A DNA stretch of 64,000 nt from Mycolicibacterium mucogenicum DSM 44124. GTDB taxonomy: Bacteria > Actinomycetota > Actinomycetes > Mycobacteriales > Mycobacteriaceae. The notes beneath the pieces were generated by a model that made no database searches, had not been told where the DNA came from, and saw only the letters and a program-made list of their open reading frames with translations. The stretch spans positions 248,001 through 312,000 of the forward strand of contig NZ_CP062008.1 in NCBI RefSeq assembly GCF_005670685.2. Reading direction: 5' to 3'. Each line of letters opens with the position of its first letter. Within the stretch, counting starts at the first letter, position 1. Shown one piece after another: positions 24,395-52,533 of the stretch. The position numbers and the translations under genes are program-made.

Positions 24395-24958
24395 TTAGCG
24401 GCTGAGTGTGAGGACGGCCGGTAGCAGCGCCGCGATCTGTTCACCCACCGCCTCGAAGGTTTCGAGGTCCCGACCGATCGGATCTGTGATCTCCACCGGC
24501 TGGTGTTCGTGCAGGCGGAGGCGTAACGGCGCCAGGTCGGACACCGTGCGCACGCCGTAGGTGGAAGCCAAGAGAGCGGCTTCGCCGAGTGTGAACGTCC
24601 GCCGAAGTTGACGCGGCGCGAGTTCGAGTACGGCGGTGCGGTGCGCCGATGTCATCGTCAGGACAAGGTCGGCGTCGGAGGCGATTCGCGGAGTCAGCTG
24701 TCGCGCAGCGAAGTTCGTGGGGTCGCCGCCGAGCCCGATGAGGACCTCTGCTGCGAATCGATGGACCGGATGCCCGATCACGGCGTGTATTCCCGCGCTG
24801 GCGGCGGTGAAGTCAGGGATGCCCATCTGCGCGGCTAGTCCCACGGAAAGTCGTTCTGCGGTAGGCGATCTGCAGATGTTGCCGGTGCAGACGAACAGGA
24901 TGCGCAGGGCGACCTCCCAAAAGAGTCTTAACGCAAACGTCAATAATCCCGTGCGCAC
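24395..24958 (-). CDS. Low-molecular-weight protein tyrosine phosphatase (Wzb-like)
   Basis: The phosphatase P-loop CTGNICRSP (CX5R) opens the domain and the DP acid motif occurs in [12 protein letters not shown] near the end. In capsule systems such enzymes dephosphorylate the Wzc tyrosine kinase, which is present here at 51163-52533. The start is uncertain. GTG at 24958 (187 residues) is the nearest usual start, but the family normally begins at the ILFVCTGN strand. A CTG at 24907 has GGGAGG 5 nt upstream and would give the expected 170-residue protein starting (L)RILFVCTGN. Divergent from rmlA. Confidence 0.85.
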
Positions 24959-24977
24959 GGCTTTGACGTGCCACGAT

Positions 24978-25889
24978 ATGCCCGTGAAGGGCATCATCCT
25001 AGCGGGCGGGTCAGGCACCAGGCTGCACCCGATCACGTTGGGTGTGTCCAAGCAGCTGATTCCGGTTTACGACAAACCGATGGTCTATTACCCGCTGTCG
25101 ACGCTGCTATTGGCGCGGATCCGCGACATCCTAGTGATCACAACGCCTTTCGATGCGCCCAGTTTTGAGCGTCTTTTGGGCGACGGCTCCCAGTTTGGAG
25201 CATCGATCACCTATGCGCGACAGCCTTCGCCGGATGGCCTCGCGCAGGCTTTCTCAATCGGCGCAGATTTCATCGGGTCGGAGAAAGTTGCCCTGATATT
25301 GGGCGACAACCTCTTGTATGGCCCGGGTTTGGGCCGGCAGCTCCAGGATTTCAACGGTGTCGATGGCGGAGCAATCTTCGCTTACCGTGTAGCGGAACCG
25401 AGTCAATACGGCGTCATTGAATTCGATGAACGCGGGTTGGCTATTTCCCTCGAAGAGAAGCCGAAGATTGCCAAGAGTAACTACGCGGTCCCTGGGTTGT
25501 ACTTTTATGACAACGACGTGATTTCAATTGCCCAAGATCTGAAGCCGAGCGCCCGCGGGGAGTACGAGATCACCGACGTCAACCGTGTCTACCTTGAGCG
25601 GGGTGGGCTCCATGTGCAGGTGCTGCCCCGAGGGACCGTCTGGCTCGATACCGGCACGGTCGACAGCATGACCGATGCCGCGGACTTTGTGCGCACCATG
25701 GAGCGGCGTACCGGCTTGAAGGTCGGTGTTCCGGAAGAAATAGCCTGGCGTCAGGGTTTCCTCACCGATGACCAGTTGAGGGAACGGGCCGAGCGTCTAG
25801 TGCGGTCAGGTTATGGCTGGTACCTGCTTGATCTGCTCGACGGGGGATTGTGCCGGCCGATCGCGCCGTCCGATGCTTCGGTGATGTGA
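24978..25889 (+). CDS. rmlA: RmlA, glucose-1-phosphate thymidylyltransferase
   Basis: A 303-residue nucleotidyltransferase making dTDP-glucose from glucose-1-phosphate and dTTP, the first step to dTDP-rhamnose. Signature [20 protein letters not shown] then [17 protein letters not shown] (residues 4-41), GDNLLYGPG, and [19 protein letters not shown] follow, with [10 protein letters not shown] near 195. Start ATG 24978, or GTG 24984 two codons on. RmlB, RmlC and RmlD are not in the window. Mycobacteria have housekeeping rml genes elsewhere, so this is probably a second RmlA dedicated to or captured by the polysaccharide locus. Confidence 0.92.
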
Positions 25890-25922
25890 CACAGAAGCCA
25901 CGGCTCCATTTGAAATGAGACA

Positions 25923-25975: not shown

Positions 25976-28147
25976 CTACAGCACCCCGGACGCCGCGAGG
26001 GCCTCCTGTATGACCGGAGTTATCTTCTCGCCATAGGCCAGCGTCATATGCACGGTGTCGCGTTTGGTCAGCGTTGTTCCTACGAAACTGGGGCACTTTC
26101 GTGCGTCGTAGCAGAACCATGGGAGGGAATCGACCCATTGGCCACCGAGGGACTGGGCCAGCTGTTGTTCCGCTTCCGCCATTGCTCGCCAAACTCTGGA
26201 GACATTTGACACGCAGTCCACAGGCAAATTCGATTTTTTCCCGTAACACTCGCTGATGGAGACTCCGTCGGGCGGCGGAGCCATTAGCACAATTTTCGAA
26301 GTATTTGACTTGAATTTATTGATGAACTTCTCGAGTGAGTCGATCCACTCCCGGGGCTGGAGGGTGCGGCCACTGCCGGCCAGCTTCCTGATCCAGTAAA
26401 AGTGCGAGACGATGACGATATCGGGGTGCGCATTGTTGATGTATTCGACGGCAAGTGACCTCTTGTTCTCGCACGCATCTTCGAGACTGGTGTCCTTATC
26501 AGCCACACGCTGGTCGATGAAATGACACGAGTATTGAGCCTCGCTATGGACCTGGAGCCCCTCGTTGGAATTGAGTGCCATTGACCGCAGGGGTCCCAAG
26601 TACCCCATCGCGACGGAATCGCCGATCACGACTATCTTTGTGCGCGCCGTCGGGGAACCCCAGGTGCAGGCATCCGAACCCAGCGGATTTTCGTGCCCAC
26701 AGCGGTCGACTTCCGGTGGCGCTATGGGATCTTCGACAGCGGCTTCAACCGAGGGGTCGAACTGAGGCCATTCTGTGGATTTGAGGGCGCCCAACAACGC
26801 CGCCCGTAGCTCGCTTGCAAGTGGCAGGACACCGGCCCCAGATGGTATTTCGTGCGCGGCGGCAACTGAGATATCGCCAGGTGTTACTGCTTGTCGATAC
26901 GCATCGGGTCGTTGTGTGTAGCCGGCCAGTGCGACAACCAATAAGATCGTAGCTGCGACGGCAGCAAGTTGTGTTGAACGCTGCATCTTGATTCTGCCTC
27001 GCTGAAGTGCACGTCTGGCACGACGCAATTTCGCGTAATCGATACGGCGCAAGGGATTTTCGATGAAATGGTAGGAAGCGATAGCCAGCCCCAACGTCAG
27101 TGCCGTCGCTGTCGCGTAGTAGGTGACGGTCGTGTCCATGAGATCGGCTAACAGGATGATTACAGGCCAGTGCACGAGATAAAGCGAATAGGAGATGTCG
27201 CCGAGGTATGTGCTGATCGGATTGCGTAAGAAGGGTTGATACGCAGGTTCACCGCCGACACCCGCCGCGATGACCAACGCCGATCCGGTTACGGGAAGCA
27301 CTGCCCACGGGGCTGGAAATCCCATCGAAGGGTCAGTGATCAGAGCAATGCTCGCCACGATGATGGCTAGGCCTGCCCATGAAAGCACGGGTTTGACAGG
27401 CGTTGGTATTCGGGCGAGGAGTCCGACCGACGTGGCCAGCAACGCTCCGACTCCCAGTTCCCAAACCCGGCTGAACGTACTGAAATACGCCCGCGCCGGC
27501 CACACCGCGGATTCGTACATGGCCCAAGTTAGAGACAGCGCAATCACCAAGCCCATCACGGTGCCGGCGATCTGCATCCTGCGATGGTGCGACCAGGACC
27601 TCCGGAGGACCAGCAGGCTGATTACGAAAATCAAGGCCGGCCAGACGAAATAGAATTGCTCTTCGACTGACAGGGACCAGTAGTGCTGTAGCGGCGACAC
27701 AGAAGTGTCTGCGTTGAAGTAGTCCGTGCCCTCCATGGCGAATCGCCAGTTCGCCATGAAGATGAAGGCAAACACCGCGTCGACCCCTACTTCGTGGGCT
27801 CTGAACGGCTTGAACATCAATGTCGCGGCCACGTAGATCAAGATGAGTACAACTGTGGCGGCGGGCACAATGCGGCGCACGCGGTTCCAGTAGAACTTTC
27901 GGAATGGAACGGTGCCGTTGACCTCCGCCATTCGCAGCAAGTTGCCTGTGATGAGGAATCCGGAAATCACGAAAAACACGTCAAGCGTGACGAATCCACC
28001 TCGCGGCCAGCCCACCAGGTGGGTGATGAAGATGGTGACCATCGCGAACATGCGCAGGCCCTGGAGGTCGAGACGTTGATGGGACGATGCGGCAGCGCGG
28101 TATCGTCGCCGCGAGTATCGCTTGTACCGTTTGAGTAGTGACGCCAC
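25976..28147 (-). CDS. OafA-type acyltransferase fused to SGNH domain (paralog 1)
   Basis: A 723-residue membrane protein. The N-terminal acyltransferase-3 domain has LDLQGLRMFAMVTIFITHLVGW (catalytic His near residue 42), FVTLDVFFVISGFLITG, FYWNRVRRIVPA and LSVEEQFYFVWP, with about ten or eleven helices to residue about 380. The C-terminal extracytoplasmic SGNH domain has GDSVAMG (block I) and RDTVHM (Asp and His). These proteins O-acetylate or O-succinylate glycans outside the membrane. Long basic N-terminus (KRYKRYSRRRYR). Highly similar in layout to 46191-48368. It probably decorates the polymer of this locus. Confidence 0.9.
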   Translation of the reverse strand: MASLLKRYKRYSRRRYRAAASSHQRLDLQGLRMFAMVTIFITHLVGWPRGGFVTLDVFFVISGFLITGNLLRMAEVNGTVPFRKFYWNRVRRIVPAATVVLILIYVAATLMFKPFRAHEVGVDAVFAFIFMANWRFAMEGTDYFNADTSVSPLQHYWSLSVEEQFYFVWPALIFVISLLVLRRSWSHHRRMQIAGTVMGLVIALSLTWAMYESAVWPARAYFSTFSRVWELGVGALLATSVGLLARIPTPVKPVLSWAGLAIIVASIALITDPSMGFPAPWAVLPVTGSALVIAAGVGGEPAYQPFLRNPISTYLGDISYSLYLVHWPVIILLADLMDTTVTYYATATALTLGLAIASYHFIENPLRRIDYAKLRRARRALQRGRIKMQRSTQLAAVAATILLVVALAGYTQRPDAYRQAVTPGDISVAAAHEIPSGAGVLPLASELRAALLGALKSTEWPQFDPSVEAAVEDPIAPPEVDRCGHENPLGSDACTWGSPTARTKIVVIGDSVAMGYLGPLRSMALNSNEGLQVHSEAQYSCHFIDQRVADKDTSLEDACENKRSLAVEYINNAHPDIVIVSHFYWIRKLAGSGRTLQPREWIDSLEKFINKFKSNTSKIVLMAPPPDGVSISECYGKKSNLPVDCVSNVSRVWRAMAEAEQQLAQSLGGQWVDSLPWFCYDARKCPSFVGTTLTKRDTVHMTLAYGEKITPVIQEALAASGVL

Positions 28148-28818: not shown

Positions 28819-30015
28819 ATGTCTTCAGTTGCAATAATCGGAACACGCGGATACCCCAGCTACTACGGGGGCTTTGAGACTGCCGTCCGAAAACTTGCCC
28901 CTGACCTGGCCGATATGGGCTGGGATGTCACGGTGTATGGCCGGCGTGGCGCGACCAAACCGGACGACCCCAGCTTGGACCCGCGGATCACGCGGAGGGT
29001 CACCTGGGGCATGGAGACTCAGAAGCTGAGCACTCTCTCGCATGGTTTGACGGCAGCACTCGATGCCGCGGTGCGGAAGCCTGATGTGGCATTGATTATG
29101 AATTGCGCGAATGGCTATTTTTTGCCAATTCTGCGCGCGCGTGGGATCCCAACTTTGGTGAACGTCGATGGTATCGAATGGGAACGGGACAAATGGAGTC
29201 CGACCGCGAAGCGGGTATTCAGAAAAGCAGCGGAATGCACGGCCAAGTGGGCGGACGGGTTGGTGTTCGATGCGCGCCGCATCGAACAATACTGGAGGGA
29301 CACGTTCAACGCCGCGGGCACATTCATTCCCTACGGCGGTGACCTCGCCTCGGAACTGCCTGTGCCCGAGGGACTGGCACATCGCGAGTACGTCCTACTG
29401 GTCACCCGATTCGTCCCGGAGAACACAGTGCCGCAGTTCTTCGAAGCGGTGCCCGCCATCGCGGAGCAGTACCCGGTGGTTATCGTCGGTAGTTCGGGGT
29501 ACGGGGGCGAGTTGGACGCAACCGCGGAGCGCCTCGCCTCCTATCCGTCAGTGACCTGGCTGGGGCACGTGCACGACGACTCGTTGCTTCTGGCGCTGTG
29601 GCAGCACGCGGGTCTCTACTTCCATGGGCACAGCGTCGGCGGAACGAACCCAGCGTTGGTGCAGGCAATGGCTGCGGGTGCGCCGATCTTGGCACGAGAC
29701 ACCGACTACAACCGCGAAGTCCTTGGTTCTGCCGGCGAATTCGTTTGTGATGACCCAGAATTGATCGCGAAGACCGTAGTGCAGTTGATGGAGAATCGTG
29801 CAGAGCGAGAAGACGAATCGCGAGCAATGATGCTTCGGGCCGTTCAGCACTACTCGTGGGCATCAGTGGCTCGCGGCTACGACAGTGCGATGCGCGCAGT
29901 CATGGAGGCGCGCGGCGTGGCGGCGCACGCCGAAGTTCATTCGATTGCGGATCGCGCTACAGCACTGAACATTCCGGTTCCCAGCCCGATGCGGCCTCAG
30001 CAACTGGCCATGTAG
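28819..30015 (+). CDS. Glycosyltransferase, GT4 with DUF1972 N-terminus (rhamnosyltransferase-like)
   Basis: A 398-residue cytoplasmic glycosyltransferase. It opens with IGTRGYPSYYGGFETAVRKL (residues 6-25), the signature of the DUF1972 N-terminal domain seen in capsule rhamnosyl- and related transferases. The C-terminal GT-B half includes LLVTRFVPENTVP and the donor-site stretch HGHSVGGTNPALVQAMAAGAPILA. ATG 28819 follows a GGGGGCC stretch. It is the only rightward gene between acyltransferase 1 and the leftward operon. A dTDP-rhamnose donor would fit RmlA in the same locus (inference). Confidence 0.85.
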   Translation: MSSVAIIGTRGYPSYYGGFETAVRKLAPDLADMGWDVTVYGRRGATKPDDPSLDPRITRRVTWGMETQKLSTLSHGLTAALDAAVRKPDVALIMNCANGYFLPILRARGIPTLVNVDGIEWERDKWSPTAKRVFRKAAECTAKWADGLVFDARRIEQYWRDTFNAAGTFIPYGGDLASELPVPEGLAHREYVLLVTRFVPENTVPQFFEAVPAIAEQYPVVIVGSSGYGGELDATAERLASYPSVTWLGHVHDDSLLLALWQHAGLYFHGHSVGGTNPALVQAMAAGAPILARDTDYNREVLGSAGEFVCDDPELIAKTVVQLMENRAEREDESRAMMLRAVQHYSWASVARGYDSAMRAVMEARGVAAHAEVHSIADRATALNIPVPSPMRPQQLAM

Positions 30016-30037: not shown

Positions 30038-30940
30038 TCAACCTGGGTGCGTACTGATCCATTTCCATGTGCGTTCAAGGCCTTCGCGTAGCGAGACGCG
30101 CGGCTCCCAGCCGAGACTGCGCGCCAGTCCGATGTCAAGGACAGAACGTGGCACGTCGAAGCTGCGTGCGCGCTGGTGTTCGATCAACAACTCGGCCCCT
30201 GCCACATCTGACATTGCGCCCAGTACCTCGTTGAGGGTGACCGGGAGCCCTGAGCCACAGTTGAGCGCACCACGGAATTCGCTCTGCGCGGCCGAGATGC
30301 AGAGATCTCCGACGTCGTCGACATAGACGAAGTCGCGCACGGTCGACTTGGCGGCATACAGAGTGGTCGGTGACGCCCCTAGATGGTTGCGCCAGGCAAC
30401 ACCGATGATGCCCTGCGGACGGGAGAGGTTCTGGCCTGGGCCGTAGGCATTCGCGACGCGCAGGCTTACGGTCCGTGTAGCGGTTCCGCGTGTGATTGCC
30501 GCGACCGCATACTCGGAAGCTACTTTCATGGCTCCGTATGACGAAATTGGGTCAGGGCACTCTGATTCACGATGAGCAGCTGACCCTTCGCCATACACCG
30601 TCCCGCCTGAAGATAGATAGATAAAGCAACCTACGTGCGCAGCTACCGCCTGCTCCGCCAGCCAACTCGAAACACCTACCGATGACGCCAACGCTGTGGC
30701 GGGTGACTCTTGGACTGTCGCCGGAACATAGGATGATGCAGCGTCGACGACGACATCGACGCAATCGAGAAGCTCCTCGAGCCGGAAGCCCAATTCGACG
30801 CGACCGTGGACAAAATCGACTGCGTGATCCAGCAGCAAGTTGGGGTGGGGCGCAAGCGCAGTCACCGAATCACCCTGTTGGATAAATCGATTGGCAATTC
30901 CACTGCCGAGGAGTCCGGCTCCGACCACGAGGATTTTCAG
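30038..30940 (-). CDS. NAD-dependent epimerase/dehydratase (sugar-nucleotide SDR), probable CTG start
   Basis: About 300 residues of extended-SDR fold: Rossmann motif VGAGLLGSG, YLSSGGTVYGE, catalytic YGAMK, RVANAYGPGQ, FVYVDDVGD. Likely modifies a nucleotide sugar for the polymer. No ATG, GTG or TTG precedes the Rossmann motif in this frame; the first is a GTG at 30928, which would delete the first beta strand. A CTG at 30938-30940 gives (L)KILVVGAGLLGSG, exactly the expected N-terminus, and overlaps the upstream stop as CTGA. I annotate that start. Last gene of the leftward operon. Confidence 0.82.
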   Translation of the reverse strand: MKILVVGAGLLGSGIANRFIQQGDSVTALAPHPNLLLDHAVDFVHGRVELGFRLEELLDCVDVVVDAASSYVPATVQESPATALASSVGVSSWLAEQAVAAHVGCFIYLSSGGTVYGEGSAAHRESECPDPISSYGAMKVASEYAVAAITRGTATRTVSLRVANAYGPGQNLSRPQGIIGVAWRNHLGASPTTLYAAKSTVRDFVYVDDVGDLCISAAQSEFRGALNCGSGLPVTLNEVLGAMSDVAGAELLIEHQRARSFDVPRSVLDIGLARSLGWEPRVSLREGLERTWKWISTHPG

Positions 30941-32163
30941 AGTGGTACCCCGGCTTCGGCATACGCCATCGAGAGCCTTTCGACGAACTTTGATCGGCTC
31001 AGTTCCAGTCGTGAGTACTCCATGGCCTCCTTGCCCATTTTTGTGAATCGCTCCTTATCGCAGATGGCGTTGCACAGCTCAGCCGCCAATGCATCGACGT
31101 CCCCTGGCTTGACCATGACGCCGCGATCAGTTCCCAGGAGGTCCGGAACTCCGCCGACCTGTGTGCCGACTACGGGCACCCCGAGTGTCATCGCCTGATA
31201 GATCACCAGCGGCGATACCTCGTGCCAGATTGATGGAACGACGAGGGCAGCAGCTGCCAACATTTCGGCTTCGGCTGCGCTGCCCCAGGCGGTCCCTACG
31301 AATTCAACTGGTGCGGAGAGGGATTCGGCCAGATCTTTCAGCTGTGCCTCGAGGCGCCCGGTGCCGACAATGCGCACTGCGACGCCCGAAAGCGCCGCAG
31401 CTCTGATGAGGACGTCTACGCCCTTTTCGACGACCAGGCGACCGACGTACAGCACGTGACACCCCGGTGATCTATCCGGTGGAGCCGTCGGCGCAGGCCA
31501 AAAGTTGGGAACAATCTTGATGCGATCAGCCTCAATTCCTGCGGCGAGTGCGTTTCGTTGCATCAGCTCGTTGCTCACGAGCACTCTCGAAGCCACGTTG
31601 TATGGCTTCATTGCCATGACAGCTGCAGCTTCGACGCCGAGAATGATGCCGCCTGCCCGTGAGCCTCTCCAGCATCGCGTCTGGCCGGGCGCGGTTATCC
31701 GCCTTCGCGGCTCATCGAGGCAGATGGTGCATATCTGTTGCGTGACGTCGTTGAGCAGCCTGTAACTCGGGCATGACAACTTGTAGTCGTGTACGGAGAG
31801 TAGCGTCGGGATACCTTGCCGCCTGAGCTCCCGCATGAACATCGGGCCAAGCTGGTGGTGGCTGTGTACGACGTGAGCGGCATCGATCTGCTCAGCCTCG
31901 AGGAGGCGTTGGATCGCACGAGTGGTCTCGTCGCCAAGAACCGCACGGCGCGCGGTGCGCAGTCGCTGGCGGGCACCAGGCGCAGTTGGATCAACCTCGG
32001 GCACAAAGTATTCCCGCGACGGCACGTCGAGGGTGTCCTTCTCAAGCTGAGCGAAGGGAACCACTTCATGGCCGAGTTCCTCAAGAACGTCTTTGAGGTG
32101 GAAGCAGTACTCCTCGACACCACCCAGTCGGCGCCAGTACTTGTTGACCAGGAGAATTCTCAA
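30937..32163 (-). CDS. Glycosyltransferase family 4
   Basis: A 408-residue GT-B enzyme. The acceptor-domain opening is RILLVNKYWRRLGGVEEYCF with the usual Gly-Gly loop, VVHSHHQLGP follows, and the donor half has HVLYVGRLVVEKGVDVLI (about 248-265), the GTG motif in AVRIVGTGRLEAQL, and SIWHEVSPLVIYQAMTLGVPVVGT with the E-x7-E-like site. Start is TTG at 32163, with GAAGG about 9 nt before it; the protein then begins directly at the first beta strand. It is 12 nt downstream of the previous gene and overlaps the epimerase start, all one transcript. Sugar and linkage unknown. Confidence 0.87.
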   Translation of the reverse strand: MRILLVNKYWRRLGGVEEYCFHLKDVLEELGHEVVPFAQLEKDTLDVPSREYFVPEVDPTAPGARQRLRTARRAVLGDETTRAIQRLLEAEQIDAAHVVHSHHQLGPMFMRELRRQGIPTLLSVHDYKLSCPSYRLLNDVTQQICTICLDEPRRRITAPGQTRCWRGSRAGGIILGVEAAAVMAMKPYNVASRVLVSNELMQRNALAAGIEADRIKIVPNFWPAPTAPPDRSPGCHVLYVGRLVVEKGVDVLIRAAALSGVAVRIVGTGRLEAQLKDLAESLSAPVEFVGTAWGSAAEAEMLAAAALVVPSIWHEVSPLVIYQAMTLGVPVVGTQVGGVPDLLGTDRGVMVKPGDVDALAAELCNAICDKERFTKMGKEAMEYSRLELSRSKFVERLSMAYAEAGVPL

Positions 32164-34901: not shown

Positions 34902-35735
34902 CTAGAGCAGCACCCGTTCTGGGATATGTCCACCCGGTGTTGTTTTGGTTCGTCGTGCCGGGTCCGCCTTTGAGCGCGCGACGTGATCGAGCACGTGGCA
35001 CACATACATTCGTTCGAACCATATGCGGTTCCGGTCCGTCCGGTGCCCGGGCAACGTGCGATCCACATCGATCTTCCTGAGCTGATTCTCGACATTGAAC
35101 TCGTCGACTGCAGCTAGTTCACCGCACCATCTGTTCGAGAAGAACGTCGACACGTCGTCCAGATACACACTCACGGCCGGCGTGTAGAGGTCGGATGCGC
35201 CCTGCAGACACCTCAATGCGTGCTTCGTCGGGGTGTAGATGTCGACGTCGATGGAAATGAAGCCCAATGGTGCGGCAGGGGTGAGGTGCTCGCTGATGAA
35301 ACCGCCGATGGTGTCGTGAATGTCGCCGATGAGGAGGTCTGCCCGCCCCTTCAGCTTCGCCGTCAACTCGGCTTTGTTGAACATTGGGTAGTCGCCCTGC
35401 GACCAGATCTCGGGGTGGTCTTTGTACCCGCTGATCTCGCTCAACCCCTCACCCGTGTCGAAGCCGAAGATTCGGAACTTGATGCCGGTTTCTCGTGTGA
35501 TATCCGATGCCAACTCGACCATGTTCAGGAGCCCGGCTCCCTGAGCCACTCCGAACTCACAAACGGTGACCTCACGATTGCCGAAATGGCTGGCGATATC
35601 CGCGGCGCGCAGCATGCCGTATGCATAAGCCGGACGATTTGCCAGCCCAAGTTTCTCTTTGACGCGAAATGACCGGATCTGTCGCCTTCTGATGCCGTCG
35701 TAGATCCGCTTTGGAGTCAAGCGATGAATATCCAT
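34902..35735 (-). CDS. SAM-dependent methyltransferase, TylF/MycF-like
   Basis: A 277-residue class I methyltransferase. The SAM motif is VCEFGVAQGAGLLNMVELA near residues 58-76, FGFDTGEGLSE is motif II, and GFISIDVDIYTPTKHALRCL is the post-motif with a metal-binding Asp pair typical of TylF/MycF sugar O-methyltransferases. Probably O-methylates a deoxysugar of the repeat unit, which would suit a rhamnose-containing glycan. It lies 14 nt after the flippase gene in the leftward operon. Confidence 0.8.
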   Translation of the reverse strand: MDIHRLTPKRIYDGIRRRQIRSFRVKEKLGLANRPAYAYGMLRAADIASHFGNREVTVCEFGVAQGAGLLNMVELASDITRETGIKFRIFGFDTGEGLSEISGYKDHPEIWSQGDYPMFNKAELTAKLKGRADLLIGDIHDTIGGFISEHLTPAAPLGFISIDVDIYTPTKHALRCLQGASDLYTPAVSVYLDDVSTFFSNRWCGELAAVDEFNVENQLRKIDVDRTLPGHRTDRNRIWFERMYVCHVLDHVARSKADPARRTKTTPGGHIPERVLL

Positions 35736-38731: not shown

Positions 38732-38802
38732 TAGCCTTGGAGGGACACTTCCTGTTCAGACTATGGCACCGATTCGTGAGCCGTGAGGAAACTGGAGCTC
38801 AA

Positions 38803-44049: not shown

Positions 44050-44732
44050 TGATCACGCTGATTGGTCGCCGAGGCCGGCTCCGCAGCGACTCAAAGGGAC
44101 GAGCCGATGCCGAGAGGGTGGCAGCGGGCAGATTGTTTCGCGGCAGGTTCAAGTCGGCAGTCCGCAAGGCGATCGTTGCCTACAGCCTGCGTAACCGGCG
44201 CAAGAAGACAGACTTCATTCTCGCGTTCCTTGCTGAGCATGACGTCAATGACGTGCTTCTGGTCGGCGCCACCGGAGACGAGCACGGGCAGGCAAACTCC
44301 GGTGTCATCGAAAGTTTTATTGCTGCACGGTATCTGGTGAAGATGGGCATCAACATAGAGCCGGCCAACACCACCTATCCGTTCATGATTGCCGACGCAC
44401 GGGACATGCCCTTCGAGGCCAACTACGTCGATTTTGCGTTGGCGAATGCAATCATCGAGCACGTGGGGCACGAACCCGAGCAGCGCCGTATGGTCGAGGA
44501 GATGTCTCGAGTGGCTCGTACTTGGATTGTCACTACGCCCAACAAGTGGTTTCCCGTGGAGTCGCACACGTCGACCCTGTTTCTTCATTGGTTTCCAGCT
44601 TGGCGTCGGGGTCGTGAGACAGACTTCACGAGATTGCTGTCGCGACGCGAATTTCGCGCGCTCCTGCCGGACGATGCGAAGATCTCGGGGAGTCCGTTCA
44701 GCCCGACTTTCATCGCTTGCTACGCACGCTAA
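44049..44732 (+). CDS. Class I SAM-dependent methyltransferase
   Basis: A 227-residue protein. DVLLVGATGDEHGQAN near residue 68 occupies the SAM motif I position but is unusual (VGATGDE rather than the common GxGxG). The later motifs are clear: YVDFALANAIIEHVGHEPEQ near 128-147, MVEEMSRVARTWIVTTPNKW, and YPFMIADARDMPFE. It is of the Methyltransf_11 type, often found in glycan loci. ATG 44049 overlaps the acyltransferase stop. It is distinct from the TylF-like enzyme at 34902-35735. Substrate unknown. Confidence 0.75.
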   Translation: MITLIGRRGRLRSDSKGRADAERVAAGRLFRGRFKSAVRKAIVAYSLRNRRKKTDFILAFLAEHDVNDVLLVGATGDEHGQANSGVIESFIAARYLVKMGINIEPANTTYPFMIADARDMPFEANYVDFALANAIIEHVGHEPEQRRMVEEMSRVARTWIVTTPNKWFPVESHTSTLFLHWFPAWRRGRETDFTRLLSRREFRALLPDDAKISGSPFSPTFIACYAR

Positions 44733-44749: not shown

Positions 44750-46150
44750 ATGGACGTCCAATTGCGATCGAGCCTGACACGCCGTGCTGTCATGCGCGCG
44801 ACTCTCGGTGCCGCCCTTGCAACCGTTCTTCCGATCGTCTCTAGTCGGTCCGTCACCGCGGCGGTCGCATCTCCGCCTGATGCGGCTGCGGCCAACCCGA
44901 CCCGCTACATTTCAGCGTCTGGCAGCGACAGTAATGACGGATTGACTCCGAACACTGCGTGGGCAACCATCACGAAAGCAAACTCAGCTCTTCCGAAAGA
45001 CCGTTCCGTCTTATTGTTTCGGCGAGGCGACACCTTCTACGGGGAGTTGAACCTGCCGATGGGTTGCGAGGTCGGAGCCTACGGGGCGGGTGATATGCCG
45101 GTGCTGACCTTATACAAACTGCTGAACCGCTCGGCCGGATGGCTGGAGCACAGCCCGGGAGTCTGGCGGGTGGATCTGCGCTCGCCAACTACGCACAGTG
45201 GCTACACAGCGACAACCGATGCCAATGTCGGCTTTTTGCTGGTCGACGGGGTTGTCCACCCACGCCTGAAGTCTGATGTGGAATCGCTCAGCGCACCATG
45301 GGACTTCGCGTGCGATACCCAGAACGGAATGCTGTATGTGAAGGCATCCGCCAATCCGACGACGCTGGCGAGTGACATCAGGGCGGCACCGAACGGGAGT
45401 CTAGTCGGAGCGGGTGGCGCCGTTATTCACTGTGAACAGGGATCGAACGATATTCACGACGTGCATATCACCGGTGCGGGCGGTTGTGGCATCGTCGGCA
45501 GCGCTCCCGACGTGCGCATCCATCATTGTCTCATCGACTACATCGGCGGCTCAAAGCTTCTCGCAGTGGATCCCGGTGGCGCGATGCGCTACGGCAACGC
45601 GATTGGCAACTGGATCAACGTTGTGCGCTGGCGGATAGAGGGCAACGAGATTGCGCATGTCTACGATGCCGCGTGGAGCCCCCAGGGCTATGACCCGAAC
45701 GGGGGGCCGGTGTCATGGCAGGACCTCGCCTTCCGCGATAACTACGCGCACGATTGCGGCCAGATGATCGAGTTCTGGTCGCAGGGCAGTAACCCGGACT
45801 CGCTAGGGTTTGTGCGAATCTTTGTGGAGGGCAATCGCTTCGAGCGTGCAGGCTATGGCGCCTTCGCTGACGCGAGGGCTGATCAAGAGGTGCGGGTACA
45901 CCTGTTGACCTATCGGCTGGAAACGCCGGTGGATATCACGATTCAGAACAATCTTTTCGACGACGCATTCGGGGCATACAGCTACCACGCGGTCGACCCT
46001 CCGTCTGGGTATATAACTCGCAACAACACCATTCGGTTGCGAGCGCAGCACCTGATTCAATTTCAGCGACCCGAAACAGTCGAACAGTCCGCTGCTTGGC
46101 AGGTTTCGACAGGGCGCGAGAGTGGTTCGGTGTTCACCGTGCAGCTTTAG
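44750..46150 (+). CDS. Exported right-handed beta-helix protein (polysaccharide lyase-like)
   Basis: A 466-residue protein with Tat-like signal LTRRAVMRATLGAALATVLP ending near AVA. The mature part starts YISASGSDSNDGLTPNTAWA, a hallmark of pectate-lyase-like and DUF1565 beta-helix proteins. Parallel beta-helix repeats follow, with motifs such as DVRIHHCLIDYIGG, WRIEGNEIAHVYDA, DLAFRDNYAHDCGQ and ITIQNNLFDDAFGAY. Such folds are usual in polysaccharide lyases, epimerases and hydrolases; the catalytic residues cannot be assigned. It lies 17 nt after the methyltransferase gene. Confidence 0.77.
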   Translation: MDVQLRSSLTRRAVMRATLGAALATVLPIVSSRSVTAAVASPPDAAAANPTRYISASGSDSNDGLTPNTAWATITKANSALPKDRSVLLFRRGDTFYGELNLPMGCEVGAYGAGDMPVLTLYKLLNRSAGWLEHSPGVWRVDLRSPTTHSGYTATTDANVGFLLVDGVVHPRLKSDVESLSAPWDFACDTQNGMLYVKASANPTTLASDIRAAPNGSLVGAGGAVIHCEQGSNDIHDVHITGAGGCGIVGSAPDVRIHHCLIDYIGGSKLLAVDPGGAMRYGNAIGNWINVVRWRIEGNEIAHVYDAAWSPQGYDPNGGPVSWQDLAFRDNYAHDCGQMIEFWSQGSNPDSLGFVRIFVEGNRFERAGYGAFADARADQEVRVHLLTYRLETPVDITIQNNLFDDAFGAYSYHAVDPPSGYITRNNTIRLRAQHLIQFQRPETVEQSAAWQVSTGRESGSVFTVQL

Positions 46151-46190: not shown

Positions 46191-48368
46191 TTAGAGAATG
46201 CCCTTCTGTTGAAGCGTCTCAATCATCACTGGGTAAAGCTTGTCGGCGTACGTAGGGGCCATGTGGACAGCACCGTACTTCGTCGGAGATGTTCCGACGA
46301 AGGCTGGGCACAACTGTTGTTCGACACTACAGAACCAGGGTCTCGAGTCGATCCAGATTGCGTCGACCGCAGCAGCCAATTGTTGTTCTGCATTGGCCAT
46401 CTGGCTCCATCCGTTGTCTACCTTCCCGACACAATCGGCCGGCGTACTCGACCGTTTGCCGTAGCACTCAGTGGCAGACGGACCGGCGGGAGGCGGTGAC
46501 ATAAACACCAGACGCTGTGCCTTCGGCCGGAACCGTTGCACGATCCGGTGGAGGGAATCGGCCCACTGACTCGGTCCTAGCAGTTCATGGGAACCCGCAA
46601 TATGCAGGTTATTCGGCTGGTTGGCAACGATCACGACGTTTGGGTTGTTGGTATTGATGAAGTCGATCGCGGCACGTTTCCGTCCTTCGCAGTTGTCTGA
46701 AAGGCCGGGACGATCGATTTCGTCGTCGACGAAAGCGCACGATCCCATCGCGAAGTTGTGGAACTGGATCAGATCGTTCGACCCCAATGCGATATCGCGC
46801 AGTGCACCGGCGTAGCCGAGTCCGATCGAATCGCCCACTAAGACTATGCGAACCGGTGCTGACGGCGATCCCCATGCACATTGACTTGCCGGTGCATCGG
46901 CTCCACCACCACAATGGCCGATCTCAGGTAGCGCCATTTCTCCACTCATGACTTCCGGGATTGATGGCTCAAGCATCGGCCATGCGGTGGCTTGCAGCGC
47001 ATGATTGATTTCATTCTGCAGTGCAGAGCCGGCGGGACCGAATTTTGGCTCCGGTGCGGATACGTTCCCCGAGCTGACATAAGCAGCTGCTTTGGGCGGC
47101 GTCGTGTGCGCGTATGCGTCGGGCCGCACGGCGTAGGTGCAGAGCCCGATCGTCAACAGCGCGATTGCGCCTAGCGCTGCGTATTGGCTCGAACGCTTGA
47201 CTCGTATGTGGCCCTGCACGAGGTCGCGAGGCGCGGACCAGACTGTCCGCCAATCCGCTCGTCGCAGCGGATTCTCGACGAAATGGTAAGAGGCGATGGC
47301 CAATCCGAATATGCAGGTTATCGAGGTCAGGTAGTACGCCGGGCCCCGCGTCATGAGAGCGCTGAGGATGACGATGACGGGCCAGTGCACCAGATAGAGC
47401 GAATACGAAATGTCTCCAATGTATGCACTCAGCGGATTTCGCAGCAGCCATTGGTATTTCGGCTCTTCGCCGATACCCGCGGCGATGACCATAGCCGATC
47501 CGAGAACCGGCAGAGCAGCCCAGGGCGCCGGAAAACCGACAGTGTTGGTGCTGATGAAGAGCAGACCGAGGCCGATGACAACCAGACCACTCCAGGACAG
47601 GAACGGGCGGACTGAGTGTGGTATCCGAGCCGATGTCCCTGCCGTTGTGGCTAATACGGCACCGAGTCCCAACTCCCAGACTCGCGAAAAGGTGTTGAAG
47701 TAGGCCCAAGCTGGGTCGTGGGCGCTCTCGTAGAGCGCCCACCCGAACGAAGCGACGATCACAGTAGCCATCACGCATGTTCCAAGCGCCATTCGGCGGC
47801 TATGGGTCCAGGACTTTCGGATGACAATCAAGCTGATCGCGAAGATCAGCGCCGGCCATACGAAGTAGAACTGCTCTTCGACTGACAGGGTCCAATAGTG
47901 CTGTAGTGGCGACACTGTCTGGACAGCAGCTTGAAAGTAGTCGGTGCCCTCGTAGGCGAACCACCAGTTCGACATGAAGACGAAGGCGAAGAGCGCGTCG
48001 ATGCCGATTCGATTCGAGCGGAACGGCAAGAACACGAGCACCGACGCAAGGTAGGTCAGCAGCAGAACGACCGTCGCCGCGGGAACGATGCGGCGCAACC
48101 GATTCCAGTAGAAGCGCTTGAACGAGACGTTGCCTCGAGCCTGGGCGTCCCGTACCAGAATGCCGGTGATCAAGAATCCGGAGATCACGAAAAACACGTC
48201 GACGCCGACGAATCCACCGCTCGGTACGTTGAACAGGTGGTAGACGAGGACGGCAAGTATCGCAGTGGCCCGGAGTCCCTGGATGTCGAGACGCTTGGGC
48301 GTTCCCGACGCTTTTGCGCGACGCTTGCGGGTGCCGCTGGTATGGCGCCTTCTCTCCTGTATGGCCAA
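46191..48368 (-). CDS. OafA-type acyltransferase fused to SGNH domain (paralog 3, SGNH Asp replaced)
   Basis: A 725-residue paralog of 25976-28147, with LDIQGLRATAILAVLVYHLF, FVGVDVFFVISGFLITG, FYWNRLRRIVPAATVV and LSVEEQFYFVWP. Block I of the SGNH domain is VGDSIGLG. The C-terminal motif reads KYGAVHM where paralog 1 has KRDTVHM, so the catalytic Asp of the DxxH block is Gly. I choose the TTG at 48368 because GGGGAGG lies 5 nt before it and the length then equals paralog 1; the open frame runs to 48476. The SGNH half may be weak or inactive. Confidence 0.88.
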   Translation of the reverse strand: MAIQERRRHTSGTRKRRAKASGTPKRLDIQGLRATAILAVLVYHLFNVPSGGFVGVDVFFVISGFLITGILVRDAQARGNVSFKRFYWNRLRRIVPAATVVLLLTYLASVLVFLPFRSNRIGIDALFAFVFMSNWWFAYEGTDYFQAAVQTVSPLQHYWTLSVEEQFYFVWPALIFAISLIVIRKSWTHSRRMALGTCVMATVIVASFGWALYESAHDPAWAYFNTFSRVWELGLGAVLATTAGTSARIPHSVRPFLSWSGLVVIGLGLLFISTNTVGFPAPWAALPVLGSAMVIAAGIGEEPKYQWLLRNPLSAYIGDISYSLYLVHWPVIVILSALMTRGPAYYLTSITCIFGLAIASYHFVENPLRRADWRTVWSAPRDLVQGHIRVKRSSQYAALGAIALLTIGLCTYAVRPDAYAHTTPPKAAAYVSSGNVSAPEPKFGPAGSALQNEINHALQATAWPMLEPSIPEVMSGEMALPEIGHCGGGADAPASQCAWGSPSAPVRIVLVGDSIGLGYAGALRDIALGSNDLIQFHNFAMGSCAFVDDEIDRPGLSDNCEGRKRAAIDFINTNNPNVVIVANQPNNLHIAGSHELLGPSQWADSLHRIVQRFRPKAQRLVFMSPPPAGPSATECYGKRSSTPADCVGKVDNGWSQMANAEQQLAAAVDAIWIDSRPWFCSVEQQLCPAFVGTSPTKYGAVHMAPTYADKLYPVMIETLQQKGIL

Positions 48369-48574
48369 GAGAGCCTCCCCGGTCGGATCGCCGCGAATTA
48401 ACTGACGCCGACGACAGTATCGCGGTAGGCTCCCCGGAGAGGGTGATTCCTGGATCTTCTTAGCTACGACCTCCACACGGGCCGTACGTCAGTGGAAGGG
48501 ACCTGACAGCTTTCGCCTGCCGAAAATCATGACTCCGCGAAGGATTCCAGCCGCAGCATCTGGGGGTGCCCGAA

Positions 48575-49027
48575 ATGATGAGTCTCTCGCGACGCTCTGT
48601 GACACTGTTCGCCGGCGTGATAGTTGCTTCTGCCGCAGCTGTCCTGGGCAGTGGCGTGGCTTCGGCTGACGACCCACTCGTCGGCAAGACCTACGCTGAC
48701 GCCACTGCGCAGATCAAGAAGTGGTCAGGGCACCCAATTCTCTCGACTGTGGTCGGCGACCAGCTCTCGATGGACAAGTGCACCGTGGCTTCGTGGCGGA
48801 AGGATACGAAGACGGGGAAGTTCTTCCTGTCATTGTTCTGCGATACCGGTGTCGCCACGGCGAAGGATGCCGGCAACTCAGCGGGAAGCCCCACGGGCCG
48901 TTCGGCCAAGCAGCACGACATCAATGTCGAGTACCTCCATCAGCACCCAGAGGTCTGTTTGCAGATGAAGGCCGATCACCCTGATTGGTTCAAGAAGCCG
49001 ATGGACGGATGCGAGGGCGTGACCTAG
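48575..49027 (+). CDS. Small secreted protein, mycobacterial, function unknown
   Basis: A 150-residue protein with a Sec signal (MMSLSRRSVTLFAGVIVASA, then AAVLGSGVASADDP; cleavage after ASA near residue 30). The mature part DPLVGKTYADATAQIKKWSG resembles a PASTA-like or mycobacterial secreted-protein repeat, with four Cys later (CTVASW, LFCDTG, VCLQM, GCEGV) that could make two disulfides. It is not clearly an enzyme. GTG 48566 is possible but ATG 48575 has GGGGG about 9 nt upstream. 9 nt before the DUF4012 gene, so probably co-transcribed with DUF4012. Confidence 0.75.
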   Translation: MMSLSRRSVTLFAGVIVASAAAVLGSGVASADDPLVGKTYADATAQIKKWSGHPILSTVVGDQLSMDKCTVASWRKDTKTGKFFLSLFCDTGVATAKDAGNSAGSPTGRSAKQHDINVEYLHQHPEVCLQMKADHPDWFKKPMDGCEGVT

Positions 49028-49036
49028 GTCCGGCCG

Positions 49037-50884
49037 GTGTTGGGCAATCTAATCGCACTAATCGCACGTACGTATAGAAGGATGGCTGGATTGCATGATA
49101 CGGCTGGGGCTCACGATGGCGACGTTCGCTCCCGGCGACGCCTTCTGCTGAAGGGTGCGGGCGGGCTCTTCCTCGGAGTGCTGGTGGGACTGCTGGCTTG
49201 GCTGGCGCTTGAGGCACGCGTGGTGAAAGAGAATCTGGAGCAGGCCCGATCTGAGGCCGTTCAGACAAAAGAAGCCCTTTCGAACGGGAAGGTCGAGGCA
49301 GCGGCCCAGCATGCAGGCGCTGTCCAAGCGCATGCACGTAAGGCCGACGACGCTGCGCACTCCATTCCTTGGAAGCTTGCGGGCAAGCTGCCCTGGATCG
49401 GCTCCCCGTTTGTGACAGGCCAACAGATTTCGAACGTCGTTCTCGGGTTCGCGAATGATGTCCTTGAGCCGTCCGCGCATGTCGGGTTGGCCCTCTCGCC
49501 CGACCGACTGTTCGACGGCAGCCGCCTGGACGTCCAATTGCTCCGCAGTGAGGAGCCCACCATCCGCAAGCTCGCCGCTGATGCGGGTCGATTGGACGCG
49601 GAGGCGAGCGCCATAGCGACGCCTGCGTACCTCTCGGAGGTCGCAGATGCGAGGTCCAAACTCCAGGCTCAGATCTCCAGCATCTCGCGAGTTCTGCAGA
49701 CCACGGCTCTCGCTGCGCGACTGGCTCCGTCCATGATGGGAGCTGACGGCCCGACAACCTATTTCATGGGTTTCCAGACGAATGCCGAAGCTCGCGGCAC
49801 TGGCGGCATTATTGGCGGATTCGGGATTCTGCACTTCGACAATGGCTCGCCGACCGTGGAGACGCTTGGAGCGAACACTGCTTTGGAGGGCCCGTTCCGC
49901 GCATTCGATCTCGGTGTCGAGTATGCGGCGCAATACGGATATACCAATCCGACCACCGATATTCGGAACAGCAATCTCAGCTCAAATTTTCCTTACGCAG
50001 CGCAAATTTGGAAGTCGATGTGGGCGCAAGAATCTGGCGTGAATGTCGATGGTGTGATAGCCATCGACCCGGTCGCATTGAGCTATATCTTGGGCGCCAT
50101 TGGCCCCGTCCGGCTATCGGATGGTGAAGAAGTCAGCAAGGACAATGTCGTCAGATTGACGGAATCCACCGCCTACGACCGTTTTCCGACCGATCAGGTT
50201 GCACGTAAGAAGTACCTGCAGGACATCGCAGCGGAAGTTGTGAAGAAGATGACTCGGTCTGTGCAATCGCCGCGGGAATTGCTCGCAGCACTGGGTAAAG
50301 CCATCGGCGAACGTCGCATTGCTGCGTGGTCTGCCTCGGAAGCAAATCAGAAACTCCTCGCCGCGACGCCACTGGCGCACGAGATTCCCGATGATTCGGC
50401 TCCGTACGCTGAGTTGGTGCTCAACAACCTGGCGGGCAACAAGATGGATTACTACCTGAAGAGGCAGATAACCTACACGGGCGACCGTTGCGGCCAAGGG
50501 ATGCGCAACACCACCGTCACCATGAAGTTGACGAGTGATGCGCCGACGGTGCCGCTGCCGGAGTACGTTGCCGGTGCGCTCGGGCTTAGCCGCGATGTGC
50601 CGATCAAGATGCCGAGTGGTTCGATGATGACGTCTGTCCGTCTCATTGCGACGAAGGGCGCGGTATTGCAGAGCGCGTTCGCCAACAACCAGCAGATACC
50701 TGTCTTCAGCGGTGTCGAGCGTGGACATCCAACGTTTGAGGTCCAGGTTGTCATCCCGCCGAGGCTCTCCGGAGAGCTGATATTCCACCTGTCTGAGCCT
50801 GCGTCGCCCGGTGCACCTCGGGTCCCGGTCCAGCCTTTGGCGGATCCTGTTACGCCTGACATCCGCGTGCCGGAATGCAACTAG
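49037..50884 (+). CDS. DUF4012 family membrane-anchored protein
   Basis: A 615-residue protein. One helix near residues 38-60 (LLLKGAGGLFLGVLVGLLAW) anchors a large extracytoplasmic domain. A coiled-coil-like region (LEQARSEAVQTKEALSNGKV) follows, and the DUF4012 core is visible: TYFMGFQTNAEARGTGGIIG, then VNVDGVIAIDPVALSYILGA and GPV. DUF4012 proteins are common beside glycosyltransferases and Wzc-like kinases in Actinobacteria but have no proven function. GTG 49037 is annotated; ATG 49082 is an alternative, with GAAGG directly before it. Probably works in chain-length control or polymer attachment (inference). Confidence 0.85.
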   Translation: MLGNLIALIARTYRRMAGLHDTAGAHDGDVRSRRRLLLKGAGGLFLGVLVGLLAWLALEARVVKENLEQARSEAVQTKEALSNGKVEAAAQHAGAVQAHARKADDAAHSIPWKLAGKLPWIGSPFVTGQQISNVVLGFANDVLEPSAHVGLALSPDRLFDGSRLDVQLLRSEEPTIRKLAADAGRLDAEASAIATPAYLSEVADARSKLQAQISSISRVLQTTALAARLAPSMMGADGPTTYFMGFQTNAEARGTGGIIGGFGILHFDNGSPTVETLGANTALEGPFRAFDLGVEYAAQYGYTNPTTDIRNSNLSSNFPYAAQIWKSMWAQESGVNVDGVIAIDPVALSYILGAIGPVRLSDGEEVSKDNVVRLTESTAYDRFPTDQVARKKYLQDIAAEVVKKMTRSVQSPRELLAALGKAIGERRIAAWSASEANQKLLAATPLAHEIPDDSAPYAELVLNNLAGNKMDYYLKRQITYTGDRCGQGMRNTTVTMKLTSDAPTVPLPEYVAGALGLSRDVPIKMPSGSMMTSVRLIATKGAVLQSAFANNQQIPVFSGVERGHPTFEVQVVIPPRLSGELIFHLSEPASPGAPRVPVQPLADPVTPDIRVPECN

Positions 50885-51162
50885 TACGTAATTCTGAACC
50901 GAGAGGGGAGAGCGCTGGATAATTCGACCTTCTGCCGTGTTCTGGAAGATGTTCTGTCTCGGGAAAGGCGTTGCAGCGTCAGATATTTCGATGGCTGTGG
51001 CCGATGTGTGACTTGCAGATTGAAGTGCGCTTAACTCGACTGTTTTGCCCTCGCGGTTTTGCCAAATCGTGCGCTCGCGACGCGGTATGGTACGCCCAAG
51101 CCATCTGACCGTGCAGGCAGCAGATCGTCAACGTTGGATGGGCTACGTACTAGCGGTTAGGG

Positions 51163-52533
51163 GTGGCCTTGAAGCTGCAAGACTTTCTCAAGCTGATGCG
51201 CGCGCGATGGATTACGGTCTGCGCCTCGATCGTGGTTGCAGTCGTCGGCGCAATCGCAGTCACTTGGGCGACGACTCCTCTCTACCAGGCGTCTACCCAA
51301 CTCTTTGTCTCCGCATCGGCGAGTGGAACCGCGACTGACATAAACCAGGGAAACCTGTTTTCTCAGCAGCGGGTGATTTCGTATGCGCAATTGCTCATGG
51401 GCAAAACGCTCGCTCAGCGCACTGTCGACAAACTCAAGCTCGGAATTCCGGCCGCGGAGCTTCAGAGCAAGGTCAAAGCAACTGTGAAGCCGAATACGGT
51501 GCTGATCAACGTTGACGTGCTTGACGCCTCCCCGGTTCAGGCCGCTGAGATCGCCAACGCTTTGTCCGACGAGTTTGTCAACATGGTTCGTGAGCTGGAA
51601 ACGCCGGAGCACGGTGTCCAACCGGATGCTCGTGTCGTCGTCGAACAGCGGGCATCAGTGCCCGAACGTCCCGTGGTGCCGGATATCGTTGAGAATATTC
51701 TCATCGGGCTTGGTGTCGGTATCTTGCTCGGAATCGTGCTTGCGGTGGCTCGCCATGTTTTGGACAACACACTCAAGGGCCGCGAGTCGGTGGAGGAGAT
51801 CGCCGGGGCGGGCATGGTTGGTGGAATTCCGCTCGACAAGCAGTGCGTCAGGCAACCAGCTATTTCATTCGCAAAAGACAATTCGCCGATTGCGGAGGCA
51901 TTCCGCAAATTGCGTACGAACCTGAGCTTTCTTGCGGTCGACAACCCGCCTCGGGTGATCGTCGTGACCAGTTCCGTTGCTGGCGAAGGGAAATCGACAA
52001 CGGCCATCAACATCGCATTGGCCCTTGCCGAGGGCGAACAGAATGTTGTTCTGGTTGATGGAGACATGCGCAGGCCATCGGTGGCCAAGTTGCTCGGCGT
52101 GGACGGGCCCGTGGGCCTCAGTACCGTGCTCAGCGGTGCCGTATCGCTCGATGAGGCGCTGCAGAAGACGCGGTTCGACAGGTTGAGTGTGTTGAGCGCC
52201 GGCGCCATTCCGCCGAATCCCAGCGAATTGCTGGGTTCACAGGTCGCCAGCAAGCTGCTGGCCGAGCTCCGAGCGCAGTTCGACTACGTGATCATTGACT
52301 CGTCGCCGTTGCTGGCAGTGACGGACGGGGCGATACTTGCGGCACATTCCGACGGTGCGATTATGTTAGCGCGTTACGGCCGGACCAGGCGTGAGCAGAT
52401 GGCGCATGCCGTGAGCAATCTCCAAGCGGTTGGTGCAACGCTGCTCGGGGTCGTCCTGACTATGGTTCCGACCCGCGGAGACAAGGCGTACGCCTACGCT
52501 TACGGTTACTACGGGGATAGCAAGCCCGAATAG
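51163..52533 (+). CDS. Wzc-like chain-length determinant fused to BY-tyrosine kinase
   Basis: A 456-residue protein. Wzz domain: helix 1 near residues 16-36 (WITVCASIVVAVVGAIAVTW), an extracytoplasmic stretch, and helix 2 near 182-202 with the usual PxxP-type approach (PERPVVPDIVENILIGLGVG). Kinase domain: Walker A SSVAGEGKSTTAIN near 269-282, A-prime VVLVDGDMRRPSV, Walker B YVIIDSSPLL. The C-terminus carries a Tyr cluster (YAYAYGYYG) as phosphorylation site. GTG at 51163. Together with the phosphatase at 24395-24958 it would form the Wzc/Wzb pair regulating polymer length. Confidence 0.92.
   Translation: MALKLQDFLKLMRARWITVCASIVVAVVGAIAVTWATTPLYQASTQLFVSASASGTATDINQGNLFSQQRVISYAQLLMGKTLAQRTVDKLKLGIPAAELQSKVKATVKPNTVLINVDVLDASPVQAAEIANALSDEFVNMVRELETPEHGVQPDARVVVEQRASVPERPVVPDIVENILIGLGVGILLGIVLAVARHVLDNTLKGRESVEEIAGAGMVGGIPLDKQCVRQPAISFAKDNSPIAEAFRKLRTNLSFLAVDNPPRVIVVTSSVAGEGKSTTAINIALALAEGEQNVVLVDGDMRRPSVAKLLGVDGPVGLSTVLSGAVSLDEALQKTRFDRLSVLSAGAIPPNPSELLGSQVASKLLAELRAQFDYVIIDSSPLLAVTDGAILAAHSDGAIMLARYGRTRREQMAHAVSNLQAVGATLLGVVLTMVPTRGDKAYAYAYGYYGDSKPE

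Follow-up and report, generated by a model that had tools for sequence, protein, structure and literature searches.

A predicted Wzx/Wzy/Wzc-type polysaccharide island with a conserved frame and a variable core in Mycolicibacterium mucogenicum

Introduction

Accounts of the outer layer of mycobacteria usually name alpha-glucan, arabinomannan and glycolipids, and the question raised by the locus described here is whether a mycobacterium also assembles a surface polymer by means of a Wzx/Wzy/Wzc-type system. The locus was found in Mycolicibacterium mucogenicum DSM 44124, within a window of 64,000 nucleotides (the whole stretch of DNA analysed; bases 248001–312000 of a single 6.1-Mb contig), to which all positions refer unless the genome is named. 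An original prediction had placed a near-complete surface polysaccharide locus of this type at 24395–52533 and had held that no such system was described in mycobacteria, which is consistent with our search of the open-access literature, where no earlier description of a mycobacterial Wzx/Wzy locus was found among the papers listed. Here we report that this block belongs to an island of 29,078 bp (24391–53468), which very probably represents a Wzx/Wzy/Wzc-type pathway predicted to build, flip and polymerise lipid-linked repeats, and likely to attach the polymer to the wall via a DUF4012 protein. Beyond the original prediction, the locus proved to have many serotype-like relatives in the genus, with which it forms a large family, and the DUF4012 protein became a candidate wall ligase.

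Results

The island and its insertion site

The island lies between a DapB-like dehydrogenase gene (23311–24390), which stands beside an acyl-CoA dehydrogenase gene on the left flank, and a two-module polyketide synthase (PKS) gene on the right (53469–63962). Comparison with the stretches of seven relatives revealed an empty site in five of them (G020, G021, G028, G012 and G035), where the DapB-like and PKS genes abut, the distance between them being −4 to 85 nucleotides (nt); this arrangement was not seen in the stretches of G013 and G016. The guanine plus cytosine (GC) content is 57–61% inside the island, against 66–72% outside, with mixed values in two intervals at the edges. The drop in GC, the empty site and the clustering of homologues of several island genes in other genomes (G300, G354 and G402 among them), a co-occurrence that had been proposed as a check on the original prediction, together indicate that the gene block is not a product of chance. 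The predicted block did fall on the locus, and its right end at 52533 had to be moved, as the island also includes a secreted protein gene at 52861–53289. G035, which has an empty site at this position, carries DUF4012 and kinase genes on another contig, and the chromosomal position of such loci is thus not always the same. A plasmid or an insertion sequence as carrier was also considered and found no support: a near-identity DNA search with 24395–48566 (24,172 of the 29,078 bases) gave no plasmid match, no 12-mer was common to both junction areas, and neither a transposase nor an integrase was present among the open reading frames (ORFs) scanned, which were part of those in the window.

As the PKS gene adjoins the DapB-like gene at the five island-free sites, we regard it as a conserved flank and rejected it as a member of the locus. 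This bears on the possibility that the locus product is a lipid-linked oligosaccharide of the lipooligosaccharide (LOS) or glycopeptidolipid (GPL) kind, with no polymer being made. Mycobacterial LOS and GPL loci carry nonribosomal peptide synthetase (NRPS) or PKS genes together with acyl-assembly genes, a combination that the island, judged from the 20 ORFs scanned, does not have. Such a product could be suspected from the PKS gene flanking the island and from the pyruvylated and methylated glycolipids known in mycobacteria, as given in the accessible part of PMC6801904. Nevertheless, that PKS gene is equally present where the island is not, no PKS, NRPS or acyl-CoA ligase was found among the 20 ORFs scanned, and the Wzy_C-family polymerase and the Wzz-kinase described below indicate polymerisation, so that we consider a LOS or GPL product very improbable.

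Predicted flippase, polymerase and tyrosine kinase

Gene families were assigned with Pfam and NCBIfam, and 20 ORFs of the island area were scanned with Pfam. All gene types named in the original prediction were recovered, one methyltransferase falling below the cut-off; as read from the translations, several true starts are probably later than those of the mechanically called ORFs. By family assignment, the flippase of a Wzx/Wzy-dependent pathway is present as a putative Wzx protein of the MOP family (35750–37366, minus strand; PF13440, E = 8.8e-60, and PF01943), which NCBIfam MOP flippase models matched below their cut-offs.

The neighbouring polymerase candidate (37376–38731, minus strand) is a polytopic protein with 10–11 hydrophobic helices. 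It gave no Pfam or NCBIfam match, which speaks against a polymerase at this position, and its identity as Wzy hence rests on its homologues. In alignment A3, which comprises 9 of the 14 genomes matching the window Wzy in the genus and order samples, eight of the nine members match PF04932 (Wzy_C; best E = 2e-14), the exception being the window protein itself. The invariant residues of this alignment include G.GPN.Y and P.HN..L....E.G, a pattern that we take to be typical of the Wzy/WaaL family, and no PDB structure matched the Wzy profile. Solely through homology, the protein is thus assigned as a putative Wzy polymerase.

The co-polymerase and tyrosine kinase (Wzz and Wzc) are predicted to be joined in a single Wzz–bacterial tyrosine kinase (BY-kinase) fusion of the Wzc/CpsCD type (51163–52533, plus strand; PF02706 and PF13614), which scored 173.7 bits with TIGR01007, above the cut-off of 108.05, and matched Staphylococcus aureus CapAB structures with E = 2.4e-39. 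The protein contains GEGKST, VDGDMRRP and IIDSSP, presumably the Walker A, A' and B motifs of the P-loop, and a tyrosine-rich C-terminal tail, YAYAYGYYG; the regions of these three motifs and of YAYAYGYY are largely conserved across 15 sequences. Walker motifs and a C-terminal tyrosine cluster being present, it is a predicted BY-kinase, and its best named matches, among the matches listed, are from Mycolicibacterium.

A constant frame with a variable core across the genus

All 148 genomes of a first sample matched the kinase query at E ≤ 0.001, which we read as an effect of the P-loop superfamily, and the kinase was therefore counted only at an identity of at least 60%. Counted in this way, it was present in 27 of 88 sampled genomes of the genus, M. 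mucogenicum included, and DUF4012 was present in 29 of the 88, among them all 27 with the kinase. In a larger sample DUF4012 was found in 125 of 396 genomes of the genus, as opposed to none of 14 control genomes, and in contrast to this wide distribution the window type of Wzy was confined to 7 of the 396 genomes of the genus and 8 of 397 genomes of the order (own genome included in both counts), and to the own genome alone in the 148-genome sample.

The kinase neighbourhoods were examined in 19 of the 26 other kinase-bearing genomes. DUF4012 and a kinase with 63–69% identity occurred together in all 19, DUF4012 lying directly upstream in 17 and not directly upstream in the other two (G002 and G042); in G056 and G066, outside this set, it lies ∼19 kb from the kinase or on another contig. 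A phosphatase homologue was found in 14 of the 19 related loci, and the contigs of the other five end early. Homologues of the small secreted protein encoded at 52861–53289 occur ∼60–145 nt upstream of DUF4012 in most related loci, and in a set of 27 sequences 20 of 25 ORFs upstream of DUF4012 matched this protein at E < 0.01, 10 of them at E ≤ 3e-8, these values and those for homologues within loci referring to tiny databases. The core genes behaved differently. Ten related loci contained a Wzx-family protein in nine cases, Wzy_C in eight and both in seven, some of the matches being below the curated cut-off, and mean identity to relatives was 68% for the kinase, ∼20% for Wzx and 19% for Wzy. 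The constancy of kinase and DUF4012, as against Wzx and Wzy with only about 20% identity, points to a serotype-like locus, and on these comparisons the island is assigned as a capsule locus of the serotype type, with a conserved frame around a divergent Wzx/Wzy core.

The order of the parts also varies. Elsewhere the core usually lies downstream of the kinase, with the phosphatase and a PF02397 enzyme near its far end; in the window the phosphatase and DUF4012 enclose it, and the PF02397 enzyme is absent. Among the matches listed, DUF4012 lay within 10 kb of a kinase homologue in 31 of 80 loci, mostly actinobacterial; Mycolicibacterium hodleri DSM 44183 and M. neoaurum ATCC 25795 are among the named strains that have both genes. 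Three further arrangements were observed in the course of these comparisons. G300 and G354 each have two DUF4012–kinase sets within ∼30 kb (L197/L195 and L192–L194), resembling stacked capsule loci; a contig filed as an Akkermansiaceae metagenome-assembled genome (L090) carries a mycobacterial-type DUF4012–kinase pair with 61% kinase identity, perhaps through a binning error; and on the Rhodococcus plasmid pDK1 (L237) a kinase homologue (57%) directly follows a giant NRPS gene, outside any capsule locus.

The DUF4012 protein as a candidate wall ligase

The DUF4012 protein (49037–50884, plus strand; PF13196) yielded a predicted model with a pLDDT of 91.5 and with a LytR-CpsA-Psr (LCP)-like domain at ∼235–445, and because of this domain we propose it as a candidate wall ligase; as far as the model goes, it has an LCP fold. 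An alignment of 30 sequences showed E251, R253, Y380, W431 and K469 to be invariant and R427 to be conserved in 29 of 30.

Several results weigh against a ligase. The protein did not match PF03816, its sole Pfam family at E ≤ 0.001 being PF13196, and a single-pair hhalign comparison with LCP was weak (probability 2.6–5.7%; E = 0.018 for the domain and 0.0067 for the whole protein). In Foldseek the TM-scores between DUF4012 and LCP were low, 0.18–0.21 of the query and 0.30–0.43 of the target, and the best match (4g2a, E = 3.6e-4) was a non-LCP protein aligned with another region, followed by M1 aminopeptidases at E = 0.0086 and above. Moreover, three PF03816 LCP genes elsewhere in the genome could perform the ligation. 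Four controls aligned with the DUF4012 domain in hhalign gave E = 0.13–0.66, worse than the LCP pair, and a sequence search of the PDB with DUF4012 gave no match; sequence profiles alone do not show the LCP likeness.

Another explanation is that the pathway is of the Wzx/Wzy/Wzc type and its polymer is freed as exopolysaccharide, with DUF4012 assisting in the periplasm or acting with the kinase in setting chain length, and not as a ligase. That DUF4012 accompanies the kinase, that profiles do not tie it to LCP, that the genome has three ordinary LCP genes and that DUF4012 is named 'auxiliary protein for envelope protein' in the available part of PMC5412050 all agree with such a role, as against the LCP-like domain of the predicted model, and we judge release of a free polymer to be rather unlikely, though well within consideration.

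The priming enzyme and other polysaccharide regions of the genome

'Near-complete', as the locus had been called, is an apt description, since neither the island nor the rest of the window contains an initiating phosphoglycosyltransferase. This absence, together with the presence of a PF02397 enzyme within the stretch examined in 12 of the 19 related loci, unlike in the window, is a point against the proposed pathway. A priming enzyme linked to a Wzx/Wzy locus is usual and not obligatory, and PF02397 genes were detected at four places of the genome (238473–239039, 2949149–2949712, 2975393–2975955, split over two frames, and 4212674–4213246), the nearest being ∼33 kb to the left of the island. 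Those at 238 kb and 4213 kb share 49–56% identity with 12 of the 19 such enzymes detected in the loci of relatives, and less with the remainder.

A locus that was acquired recently and is incomplete and inactive would account for the island-type GC, the empty site and the want of an initiating enzyme inside the island. It is, however, hard to reconcile with the listed genes being ORFs, with the joint conservation, at 35–66% identity, of Wzx, Wzy, the beta-helix protein and the DUF1972 enzyme in G300, G354 and G402, and with the complete or split PF02397 genes at four other places, and we hold an inactive island to be highly unlikely.

The surroundings of these PF02397 genes were recorded as well. 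Next to the nearest enzyme (L165:9579–15224, outside the window) lie genes for a polytopic protein and an AT3 acyltransferase and one of the PorA family (PF11271). At genome position ∼4.209–4.232 Mb (L044), in DNA of ordinary high GC, lies a second kinase locus with genes for a Wzz-kinase, a separate Wzz, a PF02397 enzyme, an AT3 protein, three GT4 glycosyltransferases, a secretory lipase and an LGFP/glycosyl-hydrolase protein; no DUF4012 match was found in it. A third polysaccharide region at ∼2.947–2.977 Mb (L166–L168) has two of the PF02397 genes, including the split one, and encodes, among others, Wzx, a GT4 enzyme, GGDEF and EAL proteins and a protein of the beta-helix type.

Polymer type and the remaining genes

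Three other genomes, G300, G354 and G402, possess a window-like Wzx (52–63%), Wzy (35–52%), DUF1972 glycosyltransferase (66%) and beta-helix protein (53–58%); G300 additionally has a pyruvyl transferase and two ConA-like proteins (67 and 63% identical), and G402 has RmlA and one methyltransferase. The core of G284 overlaps in Wzy (36%) and the pyruvyl transferase (39%). The secreted right-handed beta-helix protein (44750–46150, plus strand; PF13229, 17.6 bits, E = 0.003, below the cut-off of 25.9) was present in exactly 3 of 24 other stretches, those with a close Wzx homologue, and is therefore likely to be specific to this polymer; it was found in none of the 80 named loci among the matches listed, although a more distantly related Wzx is encoded in six of them, and it had no plasmid match. 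With E values up to 1 admitted, PF13229 matched all four beta-helix homologues, 3.9e-5 being the best value. Assignment to a lyase or glycosidase family was set aside for this protein, its single-sequence model having a pLDDT of only 32.4 and no PDB match being better than E = 0.4 by sequence, with none by profile. The secreted ConA/LamG-like protein (40142–41767, minus strand) scored 26.0 bits with PF13385, just below the cut-off of 27.6, and matched no PDB entry by sequence or profile. Both proteins carry a twin-arginine-type leader, that of the ConA-like protein having been read by eye. These two and two small secreted proteins without a Pfam match (48566–49027, plus strand, with a signal-type N terminus, and 52861–53289, minus strand) were missing from an otherwise correct earlier gene list; the 48566–49027 protein has homologues in a named Mycolicibacterium locus (L089) and in the G300 locus.

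At the left end of the island, a low-molecular-weight (LMW) phosphotyrosine phosphatase similar to Wzb (24395–25051, minus strand; PF01451, E = 2.6e-23; start probably ∼24916) carries the motif CTGNICRSP, as read in the sequence, and is followed by the glucose-1-phosphate thymidylyltransferase RmlA (24636–25889, plus strand; PF00483; start probably ∼24978), which scored 447 bits with TIGR01207, above the cut-off of 360.65. The chain would be assembled by a DUF1972/GT4 glycosyltransferase related to the rhamnosyltransferase Cps2T (28819–30015, plus strand; PF09314 and PF13692; NF046071, E = 7e-40, below its cut-off), with close homologues in G354, G300, G402 and G052, and by three further glycosyltransferases, all on the minus strand: two of GT4 (30937–32163, PF00534 and PF13692; 32176–33513, PF13692, E = 7.3e-18) and one of GT2 (33524–34678, PF13641, E = 1.3e-6). 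An NAD-dependent epimerase/dehydratase (30038–30928, minus strand; PF01370, E = 5.5e-28) lies between the DUF1972 enzyme and these. Modification is represented by a weakly matching, putative S-adenosylmethionine (SAM) methyltransferase (34902–35735, minus strand; PF13578, 21.0 bits, below the cut-off of 26.3), a second SAM methyltransferase with a homologue in the G402 locus (43920–44732, plus strand; PF08241; start probably ∼44049), and a polysaccharide pyruvyl transferase (38635–40098, plus strand; PF04230, E = 1.4e-16; start probably ∼38803), which CsaB and WcaK models matched below their cut-offs. Three AT3-SGNH acyltransferases, each with PF01757 and PF19040, are encoded at 25976–28147 (a, minus strand), 41935–44049 (b, plus strand) and 46191–48476 (c, minus strand; 51% identical to a). 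Close to the end of the SGNH domain, the DTVH of a and the DTVGGH of b are replaced by GAVH in c, and as the Asp of this motif is presumably the catalytic residue, c may lack it. Outside the island, a cobalamin riboswitch was noted at 2430–2615 and a match to the F6 TB small RNA at 9986–10042.

Discussion

The gene content of the island, its constant and variable parts, its insertion site and the fold match of the predicted DUF4012 model are direct observations, and the first three fit the surface polysaccharide locus of the Wzx/Wzy/Wzc type that had been predicted. Enzymatic steps, sugars and attachment point are what we infer from the gene families. An enzyme encoded elsewhere, either a PF02397 phosphoglycosyltransferase or WecA, would load the first sugar on decaprenyl phosphate, and the DUF1972 enzyme and the three other glycosyltransferases would extend the chain, rhamnose probably being among the sugars added. 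Methylation and pyruvylation would take place inside the cell, Wzx would flip the repeat unit, and Wzy would polymerise it. The Wzz/tyrosine-kinase fusion would control polymerisation and would itself be reset by the LMW phosphatase. Outside, the three AT3-SGNH enzymes would acylate the polymer and the DUF4012 protein would likely attach it to the cell wall; the beta-helix protein may act on the finished polymer, as perhaps may the ConA-like one, both being companions of this Wzx/Wzy type. From its enzyme families the polymer is predicted to be charged, methylated and acylated and to contain deoxyhexose, and the likely product of the island is a surface coat with chemical decorations, which would differ in type from species to species. 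A difficulty for such a coat is that we know of no established route for a polymer of this kind across the mycomembrane.

Bifidobacterium longum has no mycomembrane. The capsule locus of its strain 105-A resembles the island in being actinobacterial and in that DUF4012 neighbours a Wzz-type protein as well as glycosyltransferases, and differs by the priming enzyme inside its locus, according to the accessible sections of PMC5412050. Within the order, another genus offers Rhodococcus equi serotype 4, whose serotype-specific, pyruvylated and acidic capsule contains rhodaminic acid, where the island has RmlA, and is known in composition from chemistry (PMC6801904, available part). The Wzy capsule loci of streptococci and staphylococci (CpsBCD and CapAB) share Wzx, Wzy, a chain-length protein with a tyrosine kinase, a phosphatase and an LCP protein that acts on the capsule (in part from PMC7831098). 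In contrast to these, the island has a Wzz-kinase fusion, an LMW-type phosphatase and DUF4012 rather than PF03816, and it differs in its host, its small secreted protein and its polymer-specific secreted proteins; apart from a linked initiating enzyme, all features of such a capsule locus that were looked for have a predicted counterpart in the island. The wps clusters of Actinoplanes missouriensis are likewise in-silico Wzx/Wzy/Wzz exopolysaccharide clusters of an actinomycete, and a deletion affecting sporangia is reported for one of them, although they are not mycobacterial and DUF4262, not DUF4012, is named in the accessible portion of the source (PMC13390465).

Taken as a whole, we tentatively propose, at slightly less than even weight, both that about one-third of the species of the genus carry a capsule-typing frame (small secreted protein, DUF4012, Wzz-kinase and LMW phosphatase) with swapped Wzx/Wzy/glycosyltransferase cores and that DUF4012 is a second, so far unrecognised LCP-fold ligase lineage binding the capsule covalently to the wall. 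Should DUF4012 indeed be a ligase, a role open to testing would be gained for a domain that has had no function assigned. A widespread variable capsule system controlled by a tyrosine kinase would extend the mycobacterial surface polymers by one class, would raise the question of how the polymer crosses the mycomembrane or is anchored beneath it, and could account for differences in colonies and phages among environmental species.

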